From positions 1 through 64,000 of the forward strand of contig NZ_QOLD01000004.1 of NCBI RefSeq assembly GCF_003333305.1: a stretch of 64,000 bases of DNA, written 5' to 3'. The stretch comes from Candidatus Colwellia aromaticivorans (lineage in GTDB: Bacteria; Pseudomonadota; Gammaproteobacteria; Enterobacterales; Alteromonadaceae). The notes below the pieces were generated by a model. The model did no database searches. It worked only from the letters and a program-made list of their open reading frames with translations, and was not told where the DNA came from. Below, one piece after another: positions 2,907-38,070 of this stretch; within the stretch, counting starts at the first letter, position 1; every line of letters starts with the position of its first letter. A program made the translations under genes and the position numbers.

Positions 2907-3340
2907 TACCCAAGCCACTTCAAAATGCGAGTTTCAGGGCTACAGAGAAATTCTTGATCAAGGCGTATATGCCGCGTTATTGATTTTGACAATAGAACAA
3001 CTATTACCTTCAATCAATGCCTTGCCTATATACCCGTAATCATTCAAAGTGCGTGATTTCAGTGGGAATTAAAAGCCATTTAAGCAAGGCATTAAATTTA
3101 TAGAATGGTTGTTCCATTCTTTAATTTAATAACGCAGTATAAATGACTTTTAAACCCATCGAAGAAGGGCTTGAGCAATCTCACTTCCTCGTTGCTGTGA
3201 TTTATAAGGGAGTAACCATTATTACATCACAGCGCCTTGAATTGAAATCGCTCAAGCACTCTGAAACCTGCATCTTGAATGGTAACGGGTATAAGCCTTT
3301 TAATTCTCGCTGAACCCTGCATCTTGAAGTGGTTTGGGTA
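2907..3340. mobile_element. MITE-like element (about 171 bp) interrupted by a second element
   Basis: The ends are inverted repeats: the left starts TACCCAAGCCACTTCAAAAT and the right reads, on the complement, TACCCAAACCACTTCAAGAT. TA dinucleotides flank the element at 2905-2906 and 3341-3342. Removing the 261-bp insertion at 3031-3291 with one TA leaves a 171-bp element. It has no coding capacity. Its inner part (CTTGCCT...AAGCCTTTTAATTCTCGCTGA) is shared with the element at 20097-20371, so the two are related. It lies in the xseA-guaB divergent region, within 175 bp of the guaB start. Confidence 0.85.
3031..3291. mobile_element. MITE-like element, 261 bp, nested inside another element
   Basis: It starts TACCCGTAATCATTCAAAGT and ends, on the complement, TACCCGTTACCATTCAAGAT, with TA on both sides (3029-3030 and 3292-3293). 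It shares most of its length with the element that breaks the TonB receptor gene (26908-27167, opposite orientation), including an internal hairpin around GCTGTGA...TCACAGC. It has no open reading frame of note. The TA target and TACCC ends suggest mobilisation by a transposase of the IS630/Tc1 type, which is inference since none is in the window. Confidence 0.88.
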
Positions 3341-20409: not shown

Positions 20410-20961
20410 TTACTTCTTTAATCGCAAACCTGTTTTTTTCAGTATTGCTGTGCTGGTTAACATATCATTATTCTTGGTGATAGAGTTTTGACTTGAATCA
20501 TTGTTACGTGTAACCAATATTTCTTTTAACAATTCTTTGATCTGACCCCTATACTGGGTTATTTCTTCTTGAGTTTTTCCGTGCACCATGGCAAATAAAT
20601 TGTAATTCCATTCAGGTAAAAAACGTGGTCTTAAGTAGCAATGGCTAACAAAAGGCAATTGACCAACTGCATCGCCGAATTTTTCAGCGTGTTCATCATC
20701 AATATCCCATACGGTCATCCCGTTAAATTGGTAGCCTAATTTATAGTGATTAGGTACAGCAGCAATACGCCTAATAATGCCGCGCTCTTGCATACTTTTA
20801 GTTAGGGTAAGTACTTGCTCAACACTAAGGTTCATTTGTTCGGCAATGGCGTGATATGGCTTTTCAATAATGGGAATACCATTTTGAGTTAATAAAATAT
20901 ATTGCCTTTCCTGCTCGGTAAGGTTTTCTTTTGTTATGTGTTCTTTAGTGTCTGTAGACAT
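20410..20961 (-). CDS. nirH: NirH, siroheme decarboxylase subunit (Lrp/AsnC-like)
   Basis: A 183-residue member of the NirD/L/G/H family, related to Lrp/AsnC regulators: an N-terminal helix-turn-helix-like part (about 18-70, NGIPIIEKPYHAIAEQMNLS) and an alpha/beta part with RRIAAVPNHYKLGY and CYLRPRFLPEWNYNLFAM. The family converts siroheme to 12,18-didecarboxysiroheme. The C-terminal tail after about residue 155 (NNDSSQNSITKNNDML...) is Asn/Ser-rich and extends past the usual end. Placed between nirG and the element before nirJ. Confidence 0.88.
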   Translation of the reverse strand: MSTDTKEHITKENLTEQERQYILLTQNGIPIIEKPYHAIAEQMNLSVEQVLTLTKSMQERGIIRRIAAVPNHYKLGYQFNGMTVWDIDDEHAEKFGDAVGQLPFVSHCYLRPRFLPEWNYNLFAMVHGKTQEEITQYRGQIKELLKEILVTRNNDSSQNSITKNNDMLTSTAILKKTGLRLKK

Positions 20962-21027
20962 AATGTAAACTCTTTTGACTGTGGTGTTTTACTTACTTAT
21001 TAACAAGCTAATTTGTTATACAACTAG

Positions 21028-21519
21028 CTATACCGGTAAGTATAAACAGACATAAAATTCTTTTAATTTAGGTACATTAAGCACTTTTAAGCCAGTTTTA
21101 TTTTCAATGGCTTGAACTACTTGCTCAATTTCTTCAGCCGATTCAGTGGCGATAACAAACCACATATTATAGTCATGATCTCGGCGGTAGTTATGAGCAA
21201 TTTGATCAAAGCTATTGACTTGCTCGGTGACAAAGTCAAAATCTTCTTCGGGTACCGATAAGGCAGCTAAGGTAAACGCGCCACCTAAACTTGCTGCGTC
21301 AAACATAGGGCCAAAACGGGTCAGTACTTCTTCACTGCGTAAATTATTTAAGCACGCAATGACTTCTTCCTCAGTGCTTGATACTTCTTCGGCAATTTGC
21401 GCAAAAGGGCGTTCACACACGGGTAAGCCATGTTGTAATAGGTTAATTAAGCTTTTTTCTAAGGGTGATAGCTCAACAGTTTGGCATTTTCTTCTTTTGC
21501 TTATGCTGCTCTTATCCAT
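21028..21519 (-). CDS. nirG: NirG, siroheme decarboxylase subunit (Lrp/AsnC-like)
   Basis: A 163-residue NirD/L/G/H family protein with the NirD/NirG-type signatures LTRFGPMFDAASLGGAFTLA and FDQIAHNYRRDHDYNMWFVI, where the Arg/His/Tyr cluster is thought to form the substrate site in this family. It overlaps nirDL by 8 bases, so translation is probably coupled. It would act with NirDL and NirH in removing the acetate carboxyl groups of siroheme. Confidence 0.88.
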   Translation of the reverse strand: MDKSSISKRRKCQTVELSPLEKSLINLLQHGLPVCERPFAQIAEEVSSTEEEVIACLNNLRSEEVLTRFGPMFDAASLGGAFTLAALSVPEEDFDFVTEQVNSFDQIAHNYRRDHDYNMWFVIATESAEEIEQVVQAIENKTGLKVLNVPKLKEFYVCLYLPV

Positions 21520-22600
21520 GGGCTTGTCCTTGTTCTATTACTTTACTGCTTTGTGTTTTACCGCTTTTTTCTTTACCGTAACGAGCACCGTGTTGCTTGT
21601 ATGCTTTAAAGCTAAATAGCACGTCTTTTTGAATAGCCTCAAGGCCTAGTTGTTCGGTAATTTGGCTAATTTGTTCTAACACTAGCGCTCTGTCGGTGCC
21701 ATGAATCATGCAAAATAAATTGTAAGGCCAATCAGGTAGACGGCGAGGGCGCTGATAACACAGTGAAACTGGATCACACTTCGCTAATTCTAGGGCAACG
21801 CCATCCATGTCGTCATTAGGTATATTCCAAACCACCATGGCATTGGCGTTATATCCTAGTTTTCTATGTTTAATGACTAAACCAAAACGGCGAATTAGCC
21901 CTTCTTCTCGCCAAAGAGAAATTTGCATTAGCACTTGTTGCTCTGTCAATACGAGTTGCTGAGCAATAACTTGGTAAGGGTTTAAATGTGTTGGTAGGCC
22001 TTTTTCAATGGCGCTACGTAGCGCTATTTTTTCAATTTCAGTTAAGCGAGCAGTTGTGTCATTTTGCTTAAGGGAAACTAGAGTGTCTTCTTGATTCGAA
22101 GTAGGGCTTTCTTTGCCAGTAACATTGATGCTAAACGCTAAATCAATATGGTATGAAGCTTCCATTGGTAAGACTAAAACAGCTAAGCCTGTCAGTAATT
22201 CAATATTTGCTAAGGTGTTATTAAGTGCCACCATATCGCTTGCCGTTACCACAAACCATAAATTATAAGTATGCTCTCTGCCGTAGTTATGATTCACTTG
22301 GTCAAATTTATTAACAATACTGGCAATTTTATCTAGGTCTTTTTCTGGCACAGCAAGTGCAGCTAATGTGCTTGCGCCTGCTTTTTTATGATCAAACACG
22401 GGCCCAACACGTGATAGTACTTCTTTGCTGTTGAGATCATCAACGGCTTGAAATACTTCCGGCTCATTCGTGAAGATATTAACTTGAGCCAGTTGCTCAG
22501 CAATTGTTTTATAAGGCTGGCTAGTAAGGGGGAAACCCTTTTGGCTATTATTAATAATGTCTTGCTGTAATTGACTAATTGCTACTGTTTCTTTAGTCAT
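21512..22600 (-). CDS. nirDL: NirDL fusion, siroheme decarboxylase
   Basis: A 362-residue protein in which a NirD-like domain (about 1-155; LSRVGPVFDHKKAGASTLAA, FDQVNHNYGREHTYNLWFVV) is joined to a NirL-like domain (about 180-340; IRRFGLVIKHRKLGYNANAM, CYQRPRRLPDWPYNLFCMIH) through a short Ser/Thr/Gln-rich linker (about 160-180). Such fusions occur in some denitrifiers and have been shown to decarboxylate siroheme. It follows nirF with a 2-base gap and overlaps nirG. The C-terminal tail is basic and Gln/Ser-rich. Confidence 0.9.
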   Translation of the reverse strand: MTKETVAISQLQQDIINNSQKGFPLTSQPYKTIAEQLAQVNIFTNEPEVFQAVDDLNSKEVLSRVGPVFDHKKAGASTLAALAVPEKDLDKIASIVNKFDQVNHNYGREHTYNLWFVVTASDMVALNNTLANIELLTGLAVLVLPMEASYHIDLAFSINVTGKESPTSNQEDTLVSLKQNDTTARLTEIEKIALRSAIEKGLPTHLNPYQVIAQQLVLTEQQVLMQISLWREEGLIRRFGLVIKHRKLGYNANAMVVWNIPNDDMDGVALELAKCDPVSLCYQRPRRLPDWPYNLFCMIHGTDRALVLEQISQITEQLGLEAIQKDVLFSFKAYKQHGARYGKEKSGKTQSSKVIEQGQAHG

Positions 22601-22602
22601 GA

Positions 22603-23856
22603 TTATAACCCTATTTGATGTGCGCGATTGGTGAAAAAGATACCGCTAGGACTTGATGATTTAAGTGTTTTTTGTAAGGTTTGTGTTTTTGTGTCGTATA
22701 TTTGAATTTCATTACTGTCGCGTACTGACATCCATACGTGTTCGCCACGGGGTGTAAACTCCATATGTAAAACAGCAGGGCCAGGCGTTAAGGTTTTTAC
22801 TAATTCAAAGGTTTCGGTATTAAATACTTGAATAGTATTGTTATCAGGGTAAGCAAAGTTAACCCATATTTGGCGGTTATCAGGCTGAGCCATAACAAAT
22901 ATTGGCTGGCTATGAGCCGGGATTTCTGTCACTTGTTCCCATGTTTTAGTATTTACTACTAAGACGCTATGTTGACCCACTGCAGGCATAAAAGCGTAAT
23001 CGCCAGCGATTGCCCAGCCTTCTAAATGCGGCATTTTATAAACGGGTAGTTTCTGCTGGCCTTTACCGTAATTAGGTAAAATGCGTTTAACACCTTTTTC
23101 TATATGCCATAAGTCAATAAGCGCCATGCCGTCTTCGCCAAATAAACCCGCTATGTAATAGCGACCGTCAGGGCTGATTAACGCATCGTAAGGGAATAAG
23201 CCAATATCAGTGAACTTAGTTAACTTAGGCATAGCTTTAGGTGTTTTGTTTTTCACAATATCAGAAAAATCAGCAACCCATATTTCATGGCTATCAAATA
23301 AGCTAAAGACAAATTTGTTGTTTGGTGCATCAACTAAGCCAACTACTTTAGAGCGAACTGGGCTACCATCTTTATTTTTAGGCTTAGTCGTTAAAATTGA
23401 ACTGTCGATAGTGGCGACTAATTCAAGGGTTTCACTGTTAAAGACTTTAATGCCGCCAGGGGTGTAGTTTGATACGGCAACTAATTTACCGTCTTGGCTA
23501 ATTGCGCCGCCAATACTATTGCCTGACTGCATTACCCGTTTGGCAATTTTATCTTTAAGAATATCAATTTTAGTTAAACCGCCATCACGGCCAAAAACAT
23601 AGGCATAGCGTTGGTCACGTGAATAAACAATTGAGGCGTGAGATAAGTCACCTAAACCGTCAATTTCTGCTAATACTTCTTGATGGGTATGGTTAACAAT
23701 TTGCACTTGGCCTGTGGCGCGTTCAATAACAACACCCATATCACCTGTTGCACGCAACGGTGCTTGAGCAATTTCATTAGGTGTATGACTAACGCAAGCT
23801 GCAATAACGCTAGAGAGTATTGCAATGCTTGCTAGTTTTATTAATTTAGTATTCAT
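22603..23856 (-). CDS. nirF: NirF, heme d1 biosynthesis lipoprotein
   Basis: A 417-residue beta-propeller protein related to the d1 domain of NirS but with no heme c motif. NirF binds a late heme d1 intermediate, probably dihydro-heme d1, in the periplasm. The start at 23856 (MNTKLIKLAS) is preferred over an in-frame ATG 15 bases upstream because AAAGGATTACTG sits directly before it. The signal peptide ends in a lipobox IAAC (Cys21), so it is a lipoprotein as in P. aeruginosa. Propeller repeats include VVIERATGQVQIVNHTHQEV and GIKVFNSETLELVATI. It lies between nirC and nirDL. Confidence 0.93.
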   Translation of the reverse strand: MNTKLIKLASIAILSSVIAACVSHTPNEIAQAPLRATGDMGVVIERATGQVQIVNHTHQEVLAEIDGLGDLSHASIVYSRDQRYAYVFGRDGGLTKIDILKDKIAKRVMQSGNSIGGAISQDGKLVAVSNYTPGGIKVFNSETLELVATIDSSILTTKPKNKDGSPVRSKVVGLVDAPNNKFVFSLFDSHEIWVADFSDIVKNKTPKAMPKLTKFTDIGLFPYDALISPDGRYYIAGLFGEDGMALIDLWHIEKGVKRILPNYGKGQQKLPVYKMPHLEGWAIAGDYAFMPAVGQHSVLVVNTKTWEQVTEIPAHSQPIFVMAQPDNRQIWVNFAYPDNNTIQVFNTETFELVKTLTPGPAVLHMEFTPRGEHVWMSVRDSNEIQIYDTKTQTLQKTLKSSSPSGIFFTNRAHQIGL

Positions 23857-23910
23857 CAGTAATCCTTTCATGGTGCTATTATCTAATATATTTACTATTT
23901 AATCTTTGGT

Positions 23911-24267
23911 TTACTGTTTAGCTATTTTTCCTGCTTTTAATTGTTGGGAAATCCACAACACTTCTTGTTCAGTTAATAGGTTTTTCCATGGCGGCATGGC
24001 AGTTCCTGCACGGCCATATAAAATTGTATTTTGTAAAAAAAGAAGAGGTTTTCCTTCAAGGTTTTCAGGTAATAAAGCTGGCCCTAATCCGCCTTTCAAT
24101 GTCATGCCATGGCATGAGCCACAATCTTGCTTCACTATATGAGTTAGCTGTGCTTTTCGTGTATTTGATAATGACTTGTCATTAGCATAACTTTGACTTG
24201 TTAGTATCAAAAATGTAGCCACTATAGCTGTGATACGACAAGTACGATTAATTATAGGTGAACTCAT
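23911..24267 (-). CDS. nirC: NirC, small c-type cytochrome
   Basis: A 118-residue monoheme cytochrome c with a signal peptide (hydrophobic residues 12-25), CGSCH at 49-53 and axial Met91 in GTAMPPW. It is the first gene of the minus-strand nir operon, upstream of nirF, as NirC is in Pseudomonas, where it can pass electrons to NirS or serve in heme d1 maturation. Its LGPALLPENL sequence is almost the same as in NirN, suggesting they share a heme-domain origin. An FNR-like box lies 117 bases upstream. Confidence 0.9.
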   Translation of the reverse strand: MSSPIINRTCRITAIVATFLILTSQSYANDKSLSNTRKAQLTHIVKQDCGSCHGMTLKGGLGPALLPENLEGKPLLFLQNTILYGRAGTAMPPWKNLLTEQEVLWISQQLKAGKIAKQ

Positions 24268-24383
24268 ATTAACTACCCAAACACTGCTTTTTACTTTATG
24301 TGTATTCTACAGAGAAGGAGAATAGTGTTTTTTGCCTAAGATCATCTTTTCGAGCATAAAGATAGAACAAAAGGCAGCCTTTA

Positions 24384-24397
24384 TTGATTTAAATCAG
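24384..24397. promoter_or_regulatory. FNR/DNR-like box upstream of nirC
   Basis: TTGATTTAAATCAG matches the FNR/DNR palindrome TTGAT-N4-ATCAA with one change in the last base. It is 117 bases upstream of the nirC start, a sensible place for activation of the nir operon under low oxygen or NO. Confidence 0.55.
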
Positions 24398-24477
24398 CAA
24401 ACATTAAAAATGATGAAATGTTGACTGTGTTTTTTGGAAGTGTAAAGCTAGCTATCCTGCAATAAAATCATAATATA

Positions 24478-24835
24478 TACCCGTTCCACTTGAAGGTGCA
24501 TGATTCAGCTGGAATTAGAAACGCCTTAGGCAAGGCATTGATTGAAGAGAATGGTTGTTCAGGATAATGTGCTCCTGCATTATCTAATAAGCTACATCCA
24601 TGTAGCGCCATTCTCGAAATCAATAACGCAGCATAAAGCGTTTATAAACCAGCCCTTTGGGGAAGGCTGAGCAAATCATACTCTGCGTTACATTTCTTTT
24701 TAAGGGCGCTACATGGATGTAGCTTATTAGAGAATGCAGGAGCATATTCTCCTGAATAACCCTTAATAAAAAAATGTGCCTTGATTATGAGTCACTCAGT
24801 CTTCCTGAAACGAGCATCTTCAAGTGGATCGGGTA
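24478..24835. mobile_element. MITE-like element enlarged by two opposed 50-bp insertions
   Basis: The ends start TACCCGTTCCACTTGAAGGT and, on the complement, TACCCGATCCACTTGAAGAT, with TA on each side (24476-24477, 24836-24837). It is 358 bp, about 100 longer than its relatives at 3031 and 26908. The difference is accounted for by two copies of a 52-base sequence in opposite orientation (24558-24609 and 24705-24756, 49 of 52 positions equal), each with the small palindrome GCTACATCCATGTAGC. Without them the element would be about 258 bp. It lies between nirC and the divergent TonB receptor gene. Confidence 0.82.
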
Positions 24836-24885
24836 TATACCTTTTTTAAATGAATATTCGGCGTTCAGTCAAAGTCACTTCTTTT

Positions 24886-24899
24886 TTGACATTGATCAT
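24886..24899. promoter_or_regulatory. FNR/DNR-like box upstream of the TonB receptor gene
   Basis: TTGACATTGATCAT matches TTGAY-N4-ATCAA with one change at the end. It is 74 bases before the receptor start codon. Confidence 0.45.
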
Positions 24900-24972
24900 A
24901 TTGTCGTTTTTCTTTTGCTTTATAAATATCAGAAATTATCTATAAATAAATCTAAGTACAAAGGATCGAGAA

Positions 24973-27478
24973 ATGTTTAAAAAATCGTTATTAGCTGTTG
25001 CATTAGCTAGCGTGTTATTACCTAGCACTTATAGTGTTGCTGAAGATGATGTTGTTCACCAAGGTATTGATGAAATTTTTGAGACTTTGGTTGTTATCGG
25101 TAAAACACCACGTAAGGTAGAAGATGTTGTTGGTGCAGTATCGGTTATTAATAGTGAATTAATAGATAAACAATTAGTACATGATATTGCCGATTTACTC
25201 CGTTATGAAGTGGGTATTAATGTTGTTAGTTCGGGTAGTCGTTTTGGTAATTCTAGCGTTGCAATCAGAGGTATTTCGGGTAACCGTATAGCGACCGAGA
25301 TTGATGGTGTACCTGTAGCAGATCAATTTAATATTGGTAGCTATTCTAATTCAGGTAGAAATTATATTGATCCTGATTTGATCAAACAAGTTGAAATACT
25401 CCGTGGGCCAGCATCAAGTACCTATGGCAGTGACGCTATTGGTGGCGTGATTTCTTTTATTACCAAAAAACCAACAGATCTGTTAAGCCAAACTGACAAT
25501 GATTTTTATTTAGGGCTTAAGACAGGTTATTACTCTGTTGACGACAGTAATTCGGTATCAGTGAATACTGCTTTTGGTAATGAGTCATCGAGTTTACTTA
25601 TTTCTGGCTCTCTTCGTAAAGGCCATGAGTTTGATAGTAATACCTCAAGTGATATAGAAAAAGATGTTCAGGACAATGAAATACAGGCATTTTTAGTCAA
25701 ATATTTTTATCAAATATCTGATAACCAAGAACTCAGCTTTAGCTATGATTACTTTAAGCGCTCAGCACAAACAGATTTACAATCAATTTTAGGTTTAGGG
25801 CGTTTTAAATCAACCTCTTTACTGTTAGGCGATGATGAAACCAAACGAGAAAATTTTGTAGTGAGTTATGATTTTGTGCTTGATGCTCCTTGGTTAGAAG
25901 GGGGAGTAATTCGCTATTATGATCAAAATACCGACACCGTGCAATTAACCGATGAACAAAGAGCTGAAACGAGTAGAGGAACGGGTTTAACAAATGGCTT
26001 TCATTACGACAGAGATTTTTTCTTTGAACAAAGATTACAAGGATTAAGAGCCAACTTATATACGAATATCGATTCAAGCTTTGCTACACAACACATTGGT
26101 TATGGTATTGAGTTTAGTAAGAATAAAACTGAAGAATTACGAAATGGCTTAAAAACAACTATTGCGACAGGTGATTCAACCAATAATATTTTAACAGAAG
26201 AATTCCCAGTAAGAGACTTTCCTATTTCAGAAGTTGAAGAGTTAGGTGTCTACATTAATGATGAAATAAGTATTGATGGTACAGCTATTACCATTATTCC
26301 AGCGATACGTTACGATAAATATAAATTAACGCCTAAGCCTGACGATATATATTTAGCGGATAACCCTAGCACTACCGTGGTAAATATTAGTGAAGATAGT
26401 GTGTCTCCAAAGTTAGGCGTAGTATATCAAGTAAATAGCGATAATAAGCTTTATGTGCAATATGCTAAAGGCTTTAGAGCACCACCATTTGAAGATGCCA
26501 ATATTGGTTTAGATATTCCCCTGTTCAAAATACGGGCAATACCTAACCCTGATCTAAAATCAGAAACTACCGATGGCTATGAAATTGGTTATAACTATAG
26601 TGGTATTAAGCATAAAGTTGATTTAGTGGGTTTCTATAATGATTATCAAGACTTTATTCAAACGAAAGTGAATTTAGGTTTTGATCCAACGGTTGGACGC
26701 GTTATTTTCCAATCGCAAAATATAAATCGTGCAGAAATTTATGGGGTTGAATTGAGTTACCAAGGCCACTTTGACAACTTACTAACGGATAGTGATAGCA
26801 TTACTACCTATGTGAATATGTTTTGGAGTAAAGGTGAGAATAAGGAAACCAATCAACCATTAAATGAAATTGAACCCAATCATGCCCTATTAGGTGTGCA
26901 ATGGTTATACCCGTTACCAATCAAGATGCATATTTCAGAGTGCTTGAGCTATTTCAATTCAAGGCGCTGTGATGAAATAATGGTTGTTCCATTATAAGTC
27001 ACAGCAACGATGAAGTGATGTTGCTCAAACGCTTCTTTGATGGGTTTAAAATGACTTTATACGGCGTTAAATAATCAAACCATAGAATGACTATGCTTAA
27101 CTTATTCTCCTTGCCTAAAGTCATTTTAATTCCCACTGAAATCCTGCACTTTGAATGGTAATGGGTATAAGTGCCAATGAAAGTGTCTCTGTTGAGTTGA
27201 ATGCAAACATTGTTGACGCTAAATCTGATATTGACGATCCAAATGCGGGAGATCCTGAAACCGAGTTGGCAACAACTAAGGGTTATGCCACATTTGACTT
27301 GATTGCTAATTATCACTTTAATGGGCAGCTAACCATAGCAGCAGCGGTCAATAACCTTACTGATCGCCAGTATTGGCGTTGGTCTGATGTGAATGGGTTT
27401 GCAGCAAGTGACCCGTTATTAGCAACCTTAGCTGCACCAGGTGTAAATGCCTCGTTGCAACTAAAGTATACTTGGTAA
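24973..27478 (+). pseudogene. TonB-dependent heme-type receptor, split by an inserted element
   Basis: The intact gene would encode 747 residues: 645 codons at 24973-26907 and 102 codons plus stop at 27170-27478. The 260-bp element at 26908-27167 and one duplicated TA interrupt it; removing both gives ...HALLGVQW-LSANESVSVEL... in frame. A signal peptide (1-24), a plug with GNRIATEIDGVPVADQFNIG and VEILRGPASSTYGSDAIGG, and the FRAP...NPDL pair typical of heme/hemoglobin receptors are present. As it stands, translation ends at 26997 after 30 foreign residues, without the last beta strands and the terminal aromatic Trp needed for barrel insertion. It is probably non-functional. Confidence 0.9.
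26908..27167. mobile_element. MITE-like element, 260 bp, inserted in the TonB receptor gene
   Basis: The left end TACCCGTTACCAATCAAGAT and the complement of the right end TACCCATTACCATTCAAAGT are inverted repeats, with a TA duplication at 26906-26907 and 27168-27169. It is homologous to the element at 3031-3291 in reverse orientation. The clean duplication and the exact restoration of a long protein make this the best-documented insertion in the window and define the element boundaries to the base. Confidence 0.93.
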
Positions 27479-27497
27479 GGTCCCTTCGACCCTTCGA

Positions 27498-27810
27498 CCC
27501 TTCGACAAGCTCAGGGCAAGCGGTAAATAGTCAGGGCAAGCGGTAAATAGTCAGGGCAAGCGGTAAATAGTCAGGGCAAGCGGTAAATAGTCAGGGCAAG
27601 CGGTAAATAGTCAGGGCAAGCAGTAAATAGTCAGGGCAAGCGGTAAATAGTTAGGGCAAGCGGTAGATAGATTAAGTAGTAGATAGTTAGTTCAGCTCAG
27701 ACGGTAAATAGTTCCGCTCAGGAGAAACGGGAACTTCTGAGTAGATCTAATCATTCTGAGCAGTTTGGGTCACCCTTCGCACTTCCGTTCATCCTGAGCT
27801 TGTCGAAGGG
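27498..27810. repeat. 18-bp inverted repeat around an eight-copy 20-bp tandem array
   Basis: CCCTTCGACAAGCTCAGG (27498-27515) and its exact complement (27793-27810) flank the region. From 27511 to 27670 a 20-base unit, TCAGGGCAAGCGGTAAATAG, is repeated eight times with only two single-base changes, followed by decayed copies. The array begins inside the left arm. The TTCGACAAGCTCAGG word also recurs at 62930-63230. The units are contiguous with no unique spacers, so this is not a CRISPR array. It lies between the convergent receptor pseudogene and hemerythrin gene. Confidence 0.9.
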
Positions 27811-27820
27811 CCATATTCAG

Positions 27821-28387
27821 CTATTTTATTCCACGTTCGTTAAGGTATTCGCTATATTCTTTATCAGTGCCATTAATATGATTAATTAACCAAACAGTTA
27901 AAAATTCGCTAATATCTTTTAAAGCATCGTGACCTTTTTCATTATATAAATCGACAAAACCATTTACTTGAGCAATCATTTCTTGATGCTTGGCTTGATG
28001 AGCAACAAAGTCAGGGTAATCATTATCACGCATCATTTTTTCTTCTCGTTTAAAATGATATTTAGTGTAATCAATTAACGCTTCTAGTGCTTCTTTTTCA
28101 AACGCTTCACTCATGTCGTGATCATAGGCAACAGTAAATTGATTTAATAACTTGATTAGCTCTTTATGATCTTCATCGATAAAGGCAATACCTACACTGA
28201 ACTCATCTTTCCACTTAATTTGATTAGACTCGGCTGATTTTTTATAAAAAAGAGGAATAAGCAATAAAGCGCCAATTAATACCCAAGAGACAGGGTTACT
28301 GAAACTTGATAAAAAGCCAAGAAATATAATGACAATAATAAGACCTATTGCCATGGCGTAAATAAAAGATTTAGTACGTTTGTTCAT
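27821..28387 (-). CDS. membrane-anchored bacteriohemerythrin
   Basis: A 188-residue protein with two N-terminal membrane helices (about 8-27 and 32-48) and a C-terminal hemerythrin domain (about 58-186). The diiron ligands are visible: His in DEDHKEL, His and Glu in YHFKREEKMM, two His in HQAKHQEM, and His and Asp in NHINGTDKEY. Such proteins bind O2 or NO. It is divergent from nirS and shares the region holding two FNR-like boxes, so a role in handling NO or oxygen near the nitrite reductase is plausible but inferred. Confidence 0.92.
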   Translation of the reverse strand: MNKRTKSFIYAMAIGLIIVIIFLGFLSSFSNPVSWVLIGALLLIPLFYKKSAESNQIKWKDEFSVGIAFIDEDHKELIKLLNQFTVAYDHDMSEAFEKEALEALIDYTKYHFKREEKMMRDNDYPDFVAHQAKHQEMIAQVNGFVDLYNEKGHDALKDISEFLTVWLINHINGTDKEYSEYLNERGIK

Positions 28388-28516
28388 TTTACTTCCTTCT
28401 GTTATTTCTGCAATAAAGCCCTTACTTTAAATAGGGTTAAATTATTAGGATTGATTCTTAATCAAAGGATATTCTAAGTTTTTTTACTGTAAAGCACAGC
28501 GTTAACTTTCGATTTA

Positions 28517-28530
28517 TTGACCTTGATCAA
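28517..28530. promoter_or_regulatory. FNR/DNR box 1 upstream of nirS
   Basis: TTGACCTTGATCAA fits TTGAY-N4-ATCAA with no mismatch. It lies 170 bases before nirS and 130 bases before the divergent hemerythrin gene, so it could serve either. Confidence 0.6.
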
Positions 28531-28566
28531 CTTGTTTTACTATTAGTTATCATTTTTTAAAAATAT

Positions 28567-28580
28567 TGATCTGCATCACA
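28567..28580. promoter_or_regulatory. FNR/DNR-like box 2 upstream of nirS
   Basis: TTGATCTGCATCAC matches the same palindrome with one mismatch in the last base. It is 120 bases before the nirS start. Confidence 0.5.
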
Positions 28581-28699
28581 TAAATGTAACTCAAATAAAG
28601 AGATAGTTACATTTAGAAACATTTAGTGCCTGTATTTTTTGAAAAGAACAGGTATTAGCAAATAAAGACGAAAATAAAATAATATCTGGAGAGTAACCG

Positions 28700-30331
28700 A
28701 TGAGAAATATTAAATACAGTCTTTCAGCACTTGGTTTAGCTATTGGGATGGCAGCTGGCGGTATCAGCATGTCAGTATCAGCAAGCGATAAACCTGAGCT
28801 ATCTGAAGCTGATTATGAAAAAGCAAAATTACAATACTTCCAGCGTTGTGCTGGTTGTCATGGTACTTTGCGTAAAGGTGCTACAGGCAAAAACTTAGAG
28901 CCGAAAAGCACAATGAAAAAAGGTCAGAAGCGTTTAGAGAAAATTATCGCTTTAGGTACTGAAGGCGGCATGAACAATTTTGATGACTTGTTCACTAAGA
29001 AAGAAATTGCCAACATGGCAACGTTCATTCAAATGGAACCACCTGTTCCACCAGAAATGTCTATAGAGCAAATGCGTTCACATACTAAAGAATATGTTGC
29101 GCCGAAAGATTACCCAACTAAACCAATGCACGGTTTAAACTGGAAAAACTTCTTTGTTGTTATCGAACGTGACGCAGGTACTGCGGCAATCATCGATGGC
29201 GATACTAAAAAAATCATCACTCATATCGATACGGGTTACGCAGTACATGTAATCAAAGGTACTGAGCATCATAAAATTGACCATGCAAAAGATGTTGGTC
29301 GTTTCTGGTACACCATTGGTCGTGACGGTAAAGTTAACAAAATCGATTTATGGCAAACACCTGATAAAATGTTAGTTGCTGAAACTAAAATGGCTTATGA
29401 CGCTCGTGATATCGCTGTTTCTGGTGACGGAAAATACGTAATTGCTGGTGGTTACTGGCCTGCGCATTTCGTTATCATGGATGCTGTAACGTTAAACCCA
29501 CTTAAAGTTGTATCTACTCGTGGTTACAATACTAAAGGTGAATTCATCAATGAAGCACGTGTAGCTGCAATTTACACTTCACCTCTAACGTCTTCATTTA
29601 TCGTTGCTGTTAAAGAAACGGGTCAAATGTTACAAGTTGATTATACCGACTTAGATAACTTAACGATTACCAGCATTGCTTCTGCAGAATTCTTACATGA
29701 TGGTTTCTTCGACCCTTCAGGTCGTTACTTCCAAATTGCGGCTAATGCGTCAAACAAAATGGTTGTTGTTGATACAATAGAGCGTAAGTTAGAAGCGATG
29801 ATCGAAGTTGATGCGCTACCACATCCTGGTCCTGGTGCTAACTGGATTGATAAAGAATGTGGTCCTGTTGGCGGAACAACTCATTTAGGTGTTGGACTAG
29901 TTTCTGTTTGGGGTAACGATCCTATGGGTCACCCAGATAAAGCGTGGAAACTTTGTTATGAAGTTGAAACAGATGGTGCTGGTGCATTCATTCGTACACA
30001 CGAAACTTCACAATATGTTTGGGCTGATCAACTTAAGCATCCTGAGCCAGAAATTCAACAGTCAGTGCAAGTATTTGATAAAGATACTCACGAAATTGTT
30101 AAAACTATTCGTGTAACAACTGAGCCAGGTAAAGCGGCTTTACACATGGAATTTAACAACGATGGCTCTGAAGTTTGGGTTTCAGTTTGGAACCGTAAAG
30201 ATGCTAAAAACCCTACTGGTGAAATTGTAGTTTATGATGCAAAAACTCTTAAAGAGCTATACCGTATCAAAGGCTTAACAACGCCAACAGGTAAGTTTAA
30301 CGTTCATAACCGTATGAACCATAAAACTTAA
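28700..30331 (+). CDS. nirS: cytochrome cd1 nitrite reductase NirS
   Basis: A 543-residue periplasmic enzyme that reduces nitrite to nitric oxide, the defining step of denitrification. It has a signal peptide (1-29), a cytochrome c domain (CAGCH at 50-54, likely axial Met in GGMNNF), and the heme d1 propeller (about 145-543). Both active-site His are present, in FLHDGFFDP and LPHPGPGANW. Strong ribosome-binding site CTGGAGAGTAACCG. It is transcribed alone or with the next cytochrome, with a terminator hairpin between them. Unlike Pseudomonas, it is separated from the other nir genes by the receptor and hemerythrin genes and faces away from them. No norCB or nos genes are in the window. Confidence 0.97.
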   Translation: MRNIKYSLSALGLAIGMAAGGISMSVSASDKPELSEADYEKAKLQYFQRCAGCHGTLRKGATGKNLEPKSTMKKGQKRLEKIIALGTEGGMNNFDDLFTKKEIANMATFIQMEPPVPPEMSIEQMRSHTKEYVAPKDYPTKPMHGLNWKNFFVVIERDAGTAAIIDGDTKKIITHIDTGYAVHVIKGTEHHKIDHAKDVGRFWYTIGRDGKVNKIDLWQTPDKMLVAETKMAYDARDIAVSGDGKYVIAGGYWPAHFVIMDAVTLNPLKVVSTRGYNTKGEFINEARVAAIYTSPLTSSFIVAVKETGQMLQVDYTDLDNLTITSIASAEFLHDGFFDPSGRYFQIAANASNKMVVVDTIERKLEAMIEVDALPHPGPGANWIDKECGPVGGTTHLGVGLVSVWGNDPMGHPDKAWKLCYEVETDGAGAFIRTHETSQYVWADQLKHPEPEIQQSVQVFDKDTHEIVKTIRVTTEPGKAALHMEFNNDGSEVWVSVWNRKDAKNPTGEIVVYDAKTLKELYRIKGLTTPTGKFNVHNRMNHKT

Positions 30332-30557: not shown

Positions 30558-32345
30558 ATGACAAATAACACATTTACAAAACCGAGTTTCTGGTCACGTC
30601 GACTAATACTAGGTACTACCGTTTCAGGCGCCGTTATCTTCTTTATTGTTGGTATCGTTTTTTGGGGTGGTTTCAATACGGCAATGGAAGCTACAAACAC
30701 TACTGAGTTCTGTATTGGTTGTCATGAAATGGAAGCGAACGTTTATCAAGAATATAAGCCAACAATTCACTTTGCCAATCGTACGGGTGTTCGTGCAGGT
30801 TGTCCTGACTGCCATGTACCTAAGCCTTGGATACATAAAATTGTTCGTAAAATTCAAGCGTCAAAAGAAGTTTTCTCTTGGTTAACAGGTAAATTAGATA
30901 CTAAAGAAAAATTCAATGAACATCGCTTTGATCTTGCTCAAAGTGTTTGGAAAGCGATGAAAGATACTGATTCGAGAGAGTGTCGTAACTGTCACAACTT
31001 TGAATCCATGAATCCTGAGTTTCAAAAACCACGTGCACGTAAGCAACATTTGAATGCGTTTGAAACAGGGCAAACCTGTATCGATTGTCATAAAGGTATC
31101 GCACATCATAATGTACGCGACAAGCTTTCTGATGAAGAATTAGAGAAGCTAGAAGCGCCGAATCCAGAATATATTCGTGAAGTGCCACAAGCTTATCGCG
31201 ATGGTTTAGCACGTGTTGAAGCGAAAGAAGCTGCAGCTGCTGCAAAAGTCAAAGAAGAAAAAATGGCTGAAAAAGCAAAAACTGAGCAAAAAATAACGGC
31301 AGCCGTTGAAGCAGCACTCGCTAATGCTGGTTCTAGCAAAGCGACTAGCAAAGCGTCGAAAGCTGCTGCACCTGTTGCAAGTAATATTAATGTTGATTGG
31401 GGCAAAGCAAGCTCAAAAGATATTGGTGTTTTCTACCCAGGTACTGCGTCTATTGAATGGATATTAGGTCGTAGACATGGTGGTAAACGCGCTTTTACTA
31501 AAGGTGACCGTTGTATTGAGTGTCATGGTGAAGAGATAGCTGATATTGGTAACAATATAGTTTCAGGTGAAAGTGAGAAGAAACTTGAACCTAATGTTAT
31601 CCCTGGAAAACGTGGTCATATCGATGTAACTATTGATTCAACTCATGATGCTGAAAATCTATATTTGAGATTTAGTTGGGCTGACGGTGAACATGCTGCT
31701 GTTCCATTTGTTGATGGTGGTAAAATGGACCCAGAAAACCCAATGAAATTAGCCTTTATGCTAGCAACTGATGATGTTGAATATGCAGACCGTGCTGGTT
31801 GTTGGGGTACGTGTCATGCCGATGCTAACTCTATGCCGTTTGCACCTGATGTTGATACATTGAAGGGCAGTGATTTAGCTAAACGCCTTAACTTCGATAC
31901 GGGTGTTACTAAGTATGTTAAAGAATCGCGTACTAAATTAGAGCTTAAAGGTCGAGGTGGTAAAGCGCTAGGTGGCTGGGATAAACTCAAAGATCAAAGC
32001 GAAATTGATGCTGCACAATCGGCTAATCAATTTATGGATGTTGTTCGCTATAAATCAGGTACTAAAGAAGTAGAAGATGGTCAAATTTTAGCAGAACGCG
32101 ATATGCATAAAGGCGTAGGCGCAACTGTTGAAGCTTCACTTAAAAATGGTACTTGGTCTGTGATTGTTAAGCGTAAACTGAAATCAGATAAAGCTGGCGA
32201 TGTTAGCATTGAAGCCGGTAAAGTGTATAACTTTGGTTTCGCTATCCATGACGATTACTCAAGTGCTCGTTATCATCATGTTTCATTTGGTTACAAGCTA
32301 GCGCTTGATAATGATGAAGCTGAAGTGAATGCTGTTAAACAGTAA
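30558..32345 (+). CDS. NapC/NirT-type multiheme cytochrome fused to an ethylbenzene-dehydrogenase-like heme domain
   Basis: A 595-residue protein. One membrane anchor (about 17-38) precedes four CxxCH sites (52-56, 82-86, 142-146, 174-178) that make up a NapC/NirT quinol-oxidising domain. An Ala/Lys-rich linker (about 220-275) follows. The C-terminal half has a fifth CxxCH (319-323), an unusual CWGTCH at 415-420 (three residues between the Cys), and sequence like the heme-binding EB_dh domain. It probably takes electrons from quinol and passes them to periplasmic acceptors, perhaps NirS, which precedes it. NirT-like roles are known; this longer architecture is less described. The axial ligands of the C-terminal hemes are not assigned. 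Confidence 0.88.
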   Translation: MTNNTFTKPSFWSRRLILGTTVSGAVIFFIVGIVFWGGFNTAMEATNTTEFCIGCHEMEANVYQEYKPTIHFANRTGVRAGCPDCHVPKPWIHKIVRKIQASKEVFSWLTGKLDTKEKFNEHRFDLAQSVWKAMKDTDSRECRNCHNFESMNPEFQKPRARKQHLNAFETGQTCIDCHKGIAHHNVRDKLSDEELEKLEAPNPEYIREVPQAYRDGLARVEAKEAAAAAKVKEEKMAEKAKTEQKITAAVEAALANAGSSKATSKASKAAAPVASNINVDWGKASSKDIGVFYPGTASIEWILGRRHGGKRAFTKGDRCIECHGEEIADIGNNIVSGESEKKLEPNVIPGKRGHIDVTIDSTHDAENLYLRFSWADGEHAAVPFVDGGKMDPENPMKLAFMLATDDVEYADRAGCWGTCHADANSMPFAPDVDTLKGSDLAKRLNFDTGVTKYVKESRTKLELKGRGGKALGGWDKLKDQSEIDAAQSANQFMDVVRYKSGTKEVEDGQILAERDMHKGVGATVEASLKNGTWSVIVKRKLKSDKAGDVSIEAGKVYNFGFAIHDDYSSARYHHVSFGYKLALDNDEAEVNAVKQ

Positions 32346-32423: not shown

Positions 32424-32561
32424 GCAACCTTGTATGCCTCGTTTTTTTTTCAATATTCTGCAAGCGAAAAACTACCGATTATTTTAGCATCAATGGTTGT
32501 ATCAGCAATGTTGAATGTTCACTACTTGCTGTACCTACTTTAAGGCTTGGTATAATGCCTA

Positions 32562-32615
32562 TACCCATGATACTTCAAGATGTGCTGAATCCGACATATT
32601 GAAGTAACATGGGTA
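32562..32615. mobile_element. 54-bp miniature inverted-repeat element
   Basis: It starts TACCCATGATACTTCAAGAT and ends, on the complement, TACCCATGTTACTTCAATAT, with TA at 32560-32561 and 32616-32617. It consists of little more than two terminal repeats. It lies in the 384-base gap between the NapC-like gene's terminator and the end of the transglutaminase-like gene. Nothing else was seen in that gap. Confidence 0.75.
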
Positions 32616-32729
32616 TATATCAATACGCTTCAATAATATTCATTAAGCCATGCTTGGCTCGGATCTCATTAGCGTTAGGTAAGTTAATAAGGTTGGGATA
32701 GAAATGTTAAGTAATGAAATAAACGGTAT

Positions 32730-37570: not shown

Positions 37571-37760
37571 TTTGAAAATATAGACCTTATTAAGGTGATA
37601 GTGATATTAATTATGAGCAGTATTATAAAATTGAAAGGGAAGGAATGCTAATCAATTATTAGGAATGTTTTAGTTGGAAGTATGAAAACTGAACGTGTTT
37701 GTTTTTTCGATGTTCAGGAATTTTTTTATGTAAAATTACCATAGATAGCAACAACACCTA

Positions 37761-37813
37761 TACTCATGATACTTCAAAATGGCTGAAATGAGTATTTCGA
37801 GGTAGCATGAGTA
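37761..37813. mobile_element. 53-bp miniature inverted-repeat element
   Basis: TACTCATGATACTTCAAAAT at the left and TACTCATGCTACCTCGAAAT on the complement of the right are inverted repeats, flanked by TA (37759-37760 and 37814-37815). It resembles the 54-bp element at 32562 with TACTC in place of TACCC. It occupies the 500-base gap between ttcA and the DUF4382 gene; the rest of that gap holds only AT-rich promoter-like sequence. Confidence 0.7.
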
Positions 37814-38070
37814 TATACCGAATATAGCGGCTATATTCTTTTATGTTGTGACTGATTCAAGTATAATTATCTCGTAATTGATAAGTTGTCGAAAGACAAT
37901 CGTGAAATTGAATCTAAAATTGGTTTCATTTTTTCTATTGAGAAAGTCTATCAGTGAGTTTCATTAATGTATAAATGAAACAACAAAAGTATCTGCTTTT
38001 GCATAACATGACTTTACCCTAGATTAATTTATTATTTTAATTAATTAAAGTAACAATAAAGGTAAACATT

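Follow-up and report, generated by a model that had tools for sequence, protein, structure and literature searches.

Results

A heme receptor gene in two parts

The window (the whole 64,000-nucleotide stretch of DNA analysed, from Candidatus Colwellia aromaticivorans) harbours a receptor gene that is divided by a 260-bp element. The features at the locus are as follows:

24476..24837, no strand: second element of the same TATACCC superfamily, 362 bp, in the receptor leader, 135 bp before the ATG (recognised by its ends)
24973..26907, + strand: receptor 5' part, PhuR-like TonB-dependent heme/hemoglobin receptor, plug and most of the barrel, 645 codons (TIGR01786, TIGR01785, Pfam plug and barrel)
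26906..26907, no strand: TA target, left copy (single TA in the 6/6 empty sites inspected)
26908..27167, no strand: 260-bp MITE with imperfect terminal inverted repeats (blastn copies, end pattern, folding)
26995..26997, + strand: stop codon within the element, the 30th codon inside it, which terminates the 674-aa frame
27168..27169, no strand: TA target, right duplicated copy (single TA in the 6/6 empty sites inspected)
27170..27478, + strand: receptor 3' part, 102 codons and stop, separated from its start (TIGR01786, orthologue ends)

The receptor frame (24973-26997, 674 aa) crosses into the element at 26908. The 5' part alone matched TIGR01786 over positions 16-609 of 719 with 350.3 bits (curated cut-off 323.75) and TIGR01785 over positions 2-582 with 327 bits, also above the curated cut-off; Pfam plug and barrel domains were found in this part. 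The 3' part covered positions 616-719 of 719 in TIGR01786 (E 2.3e-14) and 588-677 in TIGR01785. Both parts match the same curated models in consecutive order, and neither contains an internal stop. A complete barrel with its native C-terminus in one frame was not found, as the match of the 5' frame stops at 609/719 and the remainder lies separate. The closest solved structure to the orthologue of genome G016 was PhuR (8the), with a match spanning residues 38-721 of 741, and the stretch missing from the frame corresponds to the end of TIGR01786 and to most of the equivalent PhuR region. The first-pass annotation had described a TonB heme-type receptor stopped 30 codons inside an element with TACCC ends and a doubled TA. 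The receptor assignment holds, with two curated cut-offs exceeded and PhuR as the closest structure, and the stop, the ends and the duplication were all correct to the base. Its rejoined protein of 747 residues was also borne out (645 and 102 codons counted, with a stop after them), as was the lack of any further stop in the downstream half (27170-27478).

Heme d1/nitrite reductase type genes surround the receptor (20410-30331), among them two cytochrome D1 proteins, siroheme decarboxylase-like proteins and a small cytochrome. The nearest cytochrome gene also lies upstream of the receptor in G016 (86%) and was unmatched in the examined flanks of G024, G031, G025 and G006. Eight head-to-tail 20-bp units (97% matches) are located just past the receptor stop (27511-27670), and a single protein at 30558-32345 combines a NapC/NirT cytochrome c domain with an ethylbenzene-dehydrogenase-type (EB_dh) domain.

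The 260-bp element has the properties of a MITE

The element begins with TACCC and finishes with GGGTA, and its terminal inverted repeats are identical in inverted order at 20 of 24 positions, TA included. Stops occur in all six frames, and there are no ORFs of at least 60 aa wholly inside it. Folding gave -101.1 kcal/mol vs. -51.5 ± 4.5 in shuffles (z -11). It shows what characterises a MITE, namely a short sequence with no transposase gene, inverted repeats, a doubled target and many copies; insertion at TA, which characterises the MITEs of the IS630 family, was also found. There were no Rfam matches within 24000-29000 up to E 1, and no phage record matched the element query. Weak matches came from eight plasmid records, three of which were from Pseudoalteromonas (37-48% of the query at ~71%). 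No description of this MITE was found in searches of the open-access literature, and where that literature joins MITEs with Colwellia, the latter appears as a community member and as a training genome.

Six relatives have an empty site

Among the 39 genomes of the genus compared (own genome included), close receptor orthologues were present in six other genomes (G024, G016, G031, G025, G036 and G006), 68-91% identical to the receptor over the matched parts. The insert was absent from all six orthologues inspected. Each site is empty and has one TA, reading TGGTTA and then directly a Ser or Asn codon. The frame is open through the natural end in five of them (G024, G016, G031, G025 and G036; the G036 orthologue lacks its start, at the edge of the examined DNA), and the same five have a hemerythrin-domain ORF downstream of the receptor, the domain being named from the copy in the window. 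This ORF was unmatched in G006, for which there was a short flank only. The G006 orthologue (L037) itself lies in three pieces in different frames, by an independent break or a sequencing fault. The homologue comparison proposed for the rejoined receptor thus came out in its favour: the orthologues match both halves, and none of the six relatives carries the same 260 bp at the site. Because these six sites are empty, both the insert and the second TA were gained on the lineage of the window; as read from the genomes, the sites demonstrate an insertion with target duplication.

The ends of the 362-bp leader element are 22/24 identical in inverted order, and it holds an inner inverted repeat around GCTACAT/ATGTAGC; the first-pass annotation made no mention of this element. 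It had no match upstream of the receptor gene in G016 or G024, the two nearest relatives, where the leader pieces that flank it lie 69 and 67 bp apart respectively, vs. 422 bp in the window. Given the short spacing and the absence of the element in these relatives, it is probably likewise an insertion on the window's lineage, at a site that is not base-exact, and the receptor locus was probably hit twice by elements.

The element belongs to an abundant family

Blastn revealed at least 58 matches to the element in its own genome, a lower bound, since scoring covered 40 of 145 candidates. Among those scored, the closest full-length copy was 92% identical (C75). The C12 copy consists of two pieces (94% and 90%) flanking an insert, and copies of 82% follow. 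In the sister copy at C12 (L007 1501-1820 = C12:101967-102285), the inner insert has TATAC...GTATA-like ends and is apparently a mini element within the MITE. In an alignment of 17 copies, the left-end ATACCC was invariant and the right-end GGGTATA nearly so.

The end pattern (up to 3 mismatches) occurred 161 + 160 = 321 times in the 3.75-Mb genome, while the reversed pattern, the sole control for end patterns, gave 0. Searching for both heptamers 236-264 bp apart yielded 57 elements of 250-278 bp with exact TATACCC/GGGTATA ends (0 in the control), and 28 exact-ended elements of 30-60 bp were also present (control 0), so that both size classes together amount to at least 85 exact-ended elements. 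One 60-bp element (C82:81313-81372) is identical to the 260-bp element for 38 bases from one end and for 26 from the opposite end, with an overlap of three, an arrangement such as an inner deletion would leave. Within the window, mini elements bounded by ends of this kind lie at 32560-32617 (58 bp) and 37759-37815 (57 bp), and a 265-bp element (3029-3293) is enclosed by another set of TATACCC-type ends (2905 and 3342), which suggests one element inserted within another.

The end pattern was matched in 37 of the 39 genus genomes, in some merely at control level; 26 of 39 had at least 20 ends, and the control was never above 3. The own genome had the most ends in the genus (321), followed by G009 (225). 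Of 295 genomes drawn from across the order, 155 matched the pattern, many at control level; in some genomes from other families the ends numbered from dozens up to hundreds (G392 had 409). As judged by its ends, the 260-bp element is established as a member of this family.

We also analysed the borders of 50 of the 57 full-length elements for ORFs of at least 100 aa extending 240 nt outside the element, a survey with flanks of 1 kb (one flank, at a contig edge, was ~500 bp) that overlooks truncated gene ends as well as old insertions that have decayed. The 260-bp receptor element was the only one with same-strand ORFs over both borders. Eight others had an ORF over one border, one had opposite-strand ORFs over both, and 40 had none.

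IS630 elements with similar ends

Ends ~2.4 kb apart were considered as a candidate autonomous element, but in the ten stretches concerned (ORFs listed for three) they belonged to neighbouring small elements with unrelated genes between them. DDE_3 matches were present in 15 of the 39 genus genomes. Five of 30 DDE_3 loci, from four genomes, had paired TATACCC-type ends around the transposase (L071, L072, L073, L074 and L086), 1093-1101 bp apart. Only L071, a 1.1-kb IS from another species of the genus, is clearly intact, with a single 353-aa ORF; L072-L074 carry a stop. The L071 transposase belongs to the IS630 family by NF033545 (227.5 bits, cut-off 100), and its protein was matched at 100% in a record of an uncultured Colwellia sp. 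(L101). Two species, G034 and G035, have the 1.1-kb IS (L071, L072) with identical 10-base flanks.

Beyond TATACCC, the ends of L071 agreed with those of the MITE at 11-13 of 17 positions (13 and 12 for corresponding ends). Among 16 comparisons, the highest agreement was that between the right end of the MITE and one end of L086 (16 of 17). The binomial P for these matches ranged from 3e-5 to 1e-3, with L086 being the best of several comparisons. The MITE and autonomous IS630 elements therefore have like ends (10-16/17 beyond the heptamer) that are similar and not identical, a likeness established for the ends and not for the inner sequence. The 25 related IS loci inspected comprised 24 of a set of 75 and one further locus; paired ends 999-1226 bp apart were found in 20 of them (one heptamer mismatch allowed, with no shuffled control), including loci from Vibrio, Photorhabdus and Psychromonas. 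No proper end pair was found in the other five.

The own genome contained four partial DDE_3 matches and, for the L071 protein, a single match of 81 residues that includes a stop. Searches with DDE_3 and the L071 protein, which addressed the IS630 type only, revealed fragments and no intact IS630 transposase in the 101-contig assembly; the helper is therefore absent, decayed or missed in this assembly.

Age and effect of the insertion

Changes unique to the window's gene were counted where G016 and G024 agree (counts rounded). On the window branch there were 13 N : 74 S in both halves together (10 N and 62 S in the 5' half, 3 N and 12 S in the 3' half), compared to 34 N : 80 S in G016 and 40 N : 112 S in G024, which are uncut (Fisher P 0.018 and 0.052 respectively). 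In the 3' half, where counts are too small to be decisive, the window had 3 N : 12 S vs. 0 : 10 (G016) and 17.7 : 22.3 (G024). A second outgroup choice (G016 and G036) pointed in the same direction, with 13.2 N : 32.8 S in the window vs. 14 : 25 in G016 for the 5' half and 1 : 10 vs. 3 : 10 for the 3' half. As the N:S ratio of the window's gene is lower and not higher, the counts give no indication of a prolonged neutral phase. A Poisson bound puts the neutral share of the branch below ~0.085, given an assumed neutral N/S of ~3.3. The recent insertion proposed in the first-pass annotation is thus backed by unrelaxed substitutions, and these counts support an insertion that is young compared with the divergence from the closest sequenced species. 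The absence of a near-identical donor among the scored copies (best 92%, 94%/90% in pieces) counts against a very fresh event; cut-and-paste movement, or a donor that was lost or left unassembled, would explain it.

Without its final 102 barrel codons the receptor is likely inactive, as the first-pass annotation proposed. There was no second TIGR01786 match at E <= 1e-40 in the own genome among the 21 of 31 candidates scored, so heme uptake through a receptor of this type may have been lost in the organism.

Discussion

We are confident that a non-autonomous MITE related to IS630/Tc1/mariner, with ends of the 'CCC' type, makes up the 260-bp element and that it entered the heme receptor gene, most plausibly by movement in trans. 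In the proposed mechanism, an IS630-family transposase from a 1.1-kb IS with TATACCC/GGGTATA ends would act in trans on a copy of the MITE, which would be cut out and pasted into the TA of a Trp-Leu-Ser stretch, doubling the TA. Because the insertion shifts the frame and ends the protein 29 codons later, the last 102 barrel codons and the native C-terminus are lost, and the receptor most likely remains unassembled in the outer membrane. We infer movement by that transposase from the similar ends and the TA target, and cut-and-paste in trans by analogy with ISY100. This member of IS630/Tc1/mariner from Synechocystis has 24-bp imperfect ends and duplicates TA; as described in PMC2170065, its transposase is the sole protein needed and 30 bp per end are enough for movement. 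ISY100 is, unlike the 260-bp element, an autonomous IS (PMC2170065), and the two are likened by description and not by end sequence.

MITEs driven by IS630 are already known, and the 260-bp element adds to that kind (a review on prokaryotic MITEs is PMC10969869). In Photorhabdus, the CCC-type IS630 elements ISPlu3, ISPlu8 and ISPlu19 are described together with MITEPlu5, related to ERIC (PMC6267812). From that account, MITEPlu5 and the 260-bp element are both IS630-related MITEs with a conserved CCC near the terminus, high copy number, strong folding and matching IS630 transposons (PMC6267812), but MITEPlu5 has 123 bp and 552 complete copies (PMC6267812), compared to 260 bp and 57 exact-ended elements of that size class here; they are likened by description alone, not by sequence. 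In this analysis, Photorhabdus records also held IS630 loci with TATACCC-type ends. RUP of Streptococcus pneumoniae (107 bp, described as intergenic), whose partner is IS630-Spn1 (PMC2229807), is likewise presented there as non-autonomous, with IS630-resembling ends, TA insertion and stops in six frames; it differs in its length, its phylum and its intergenic location, and is again likened by description and not by sequence. That the 260-bp element works like RUP and MITEPlu5 is well supported by its ends, TA target and copy number. A MITE also interrupts a metabolic gene, hupL, in Candidatus Thiomargarita nelsonii, but for that element direct repeats of 10 bp are reported, and its transposase is presumed to have a different origin (PMC4853749).

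The 674-aa truncated protein might still function as a receptor, unchanged or altered, if the element provided a new C-terminus. The frame stays open for 29 codons into the element, and the plug and TIGR01786 positions 16-609 of 719 are kept, but the five orthologues whose frame runs open to its natural end all have the missing region, which corresponds to the end of TIGR01786 and to most of the equivalent PhuR region, and the new end occurs in 0 of 6 relatives inspected. We therefore regard a functional truncated receptor as very improbable. Slightly less probable still is a reversible switch, in which the element exits and enters often enough to keep both halves selected and the receptor is phase-variable. 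The unrelaxed halves (13 N : 74 S together) and the complete element ends would fit such a switch, but no intact IS630 helper was found in the genome, and a recent insertion is the simpler account of the same data. That the element can be excised in silico to the base reflects its entry and says nothing of clean exit or reversibility in the cell. On/off control of the heme receptor by MITE entry and exit with a helper transposase from outside, such as a visiting IS-bearing replicon, is just as improbable; if true, it would explain the lack of decay in both gene halves. Finally, a repeat misplaced in the receptor gene by the assembly is conceivable for a repetitive element in a 101-contig draft genome, but this copy is unlike every other full-length copy matched (best 92%, 94% in part), and a mis-join would hardly produce complete ends, a TA duplication and an otherwise exact empty-site context, which makes an artefact most unlikely.

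A recent insertion of a MITE, probably mobilised in trans, is the reading we retain. A MITE splitting a gene is an ordinary kind of event, here well documented by uncut relatives: the locus offers a clean natural insertion with a filled site, six empty sites, a doubled target, a plausible autonomous partner and a crude age bound. The abundant TATACCC superfamily, in a genome that yielded no intact IS630 transposase, makes a useful case for studying how MITEs outlive their helpers.
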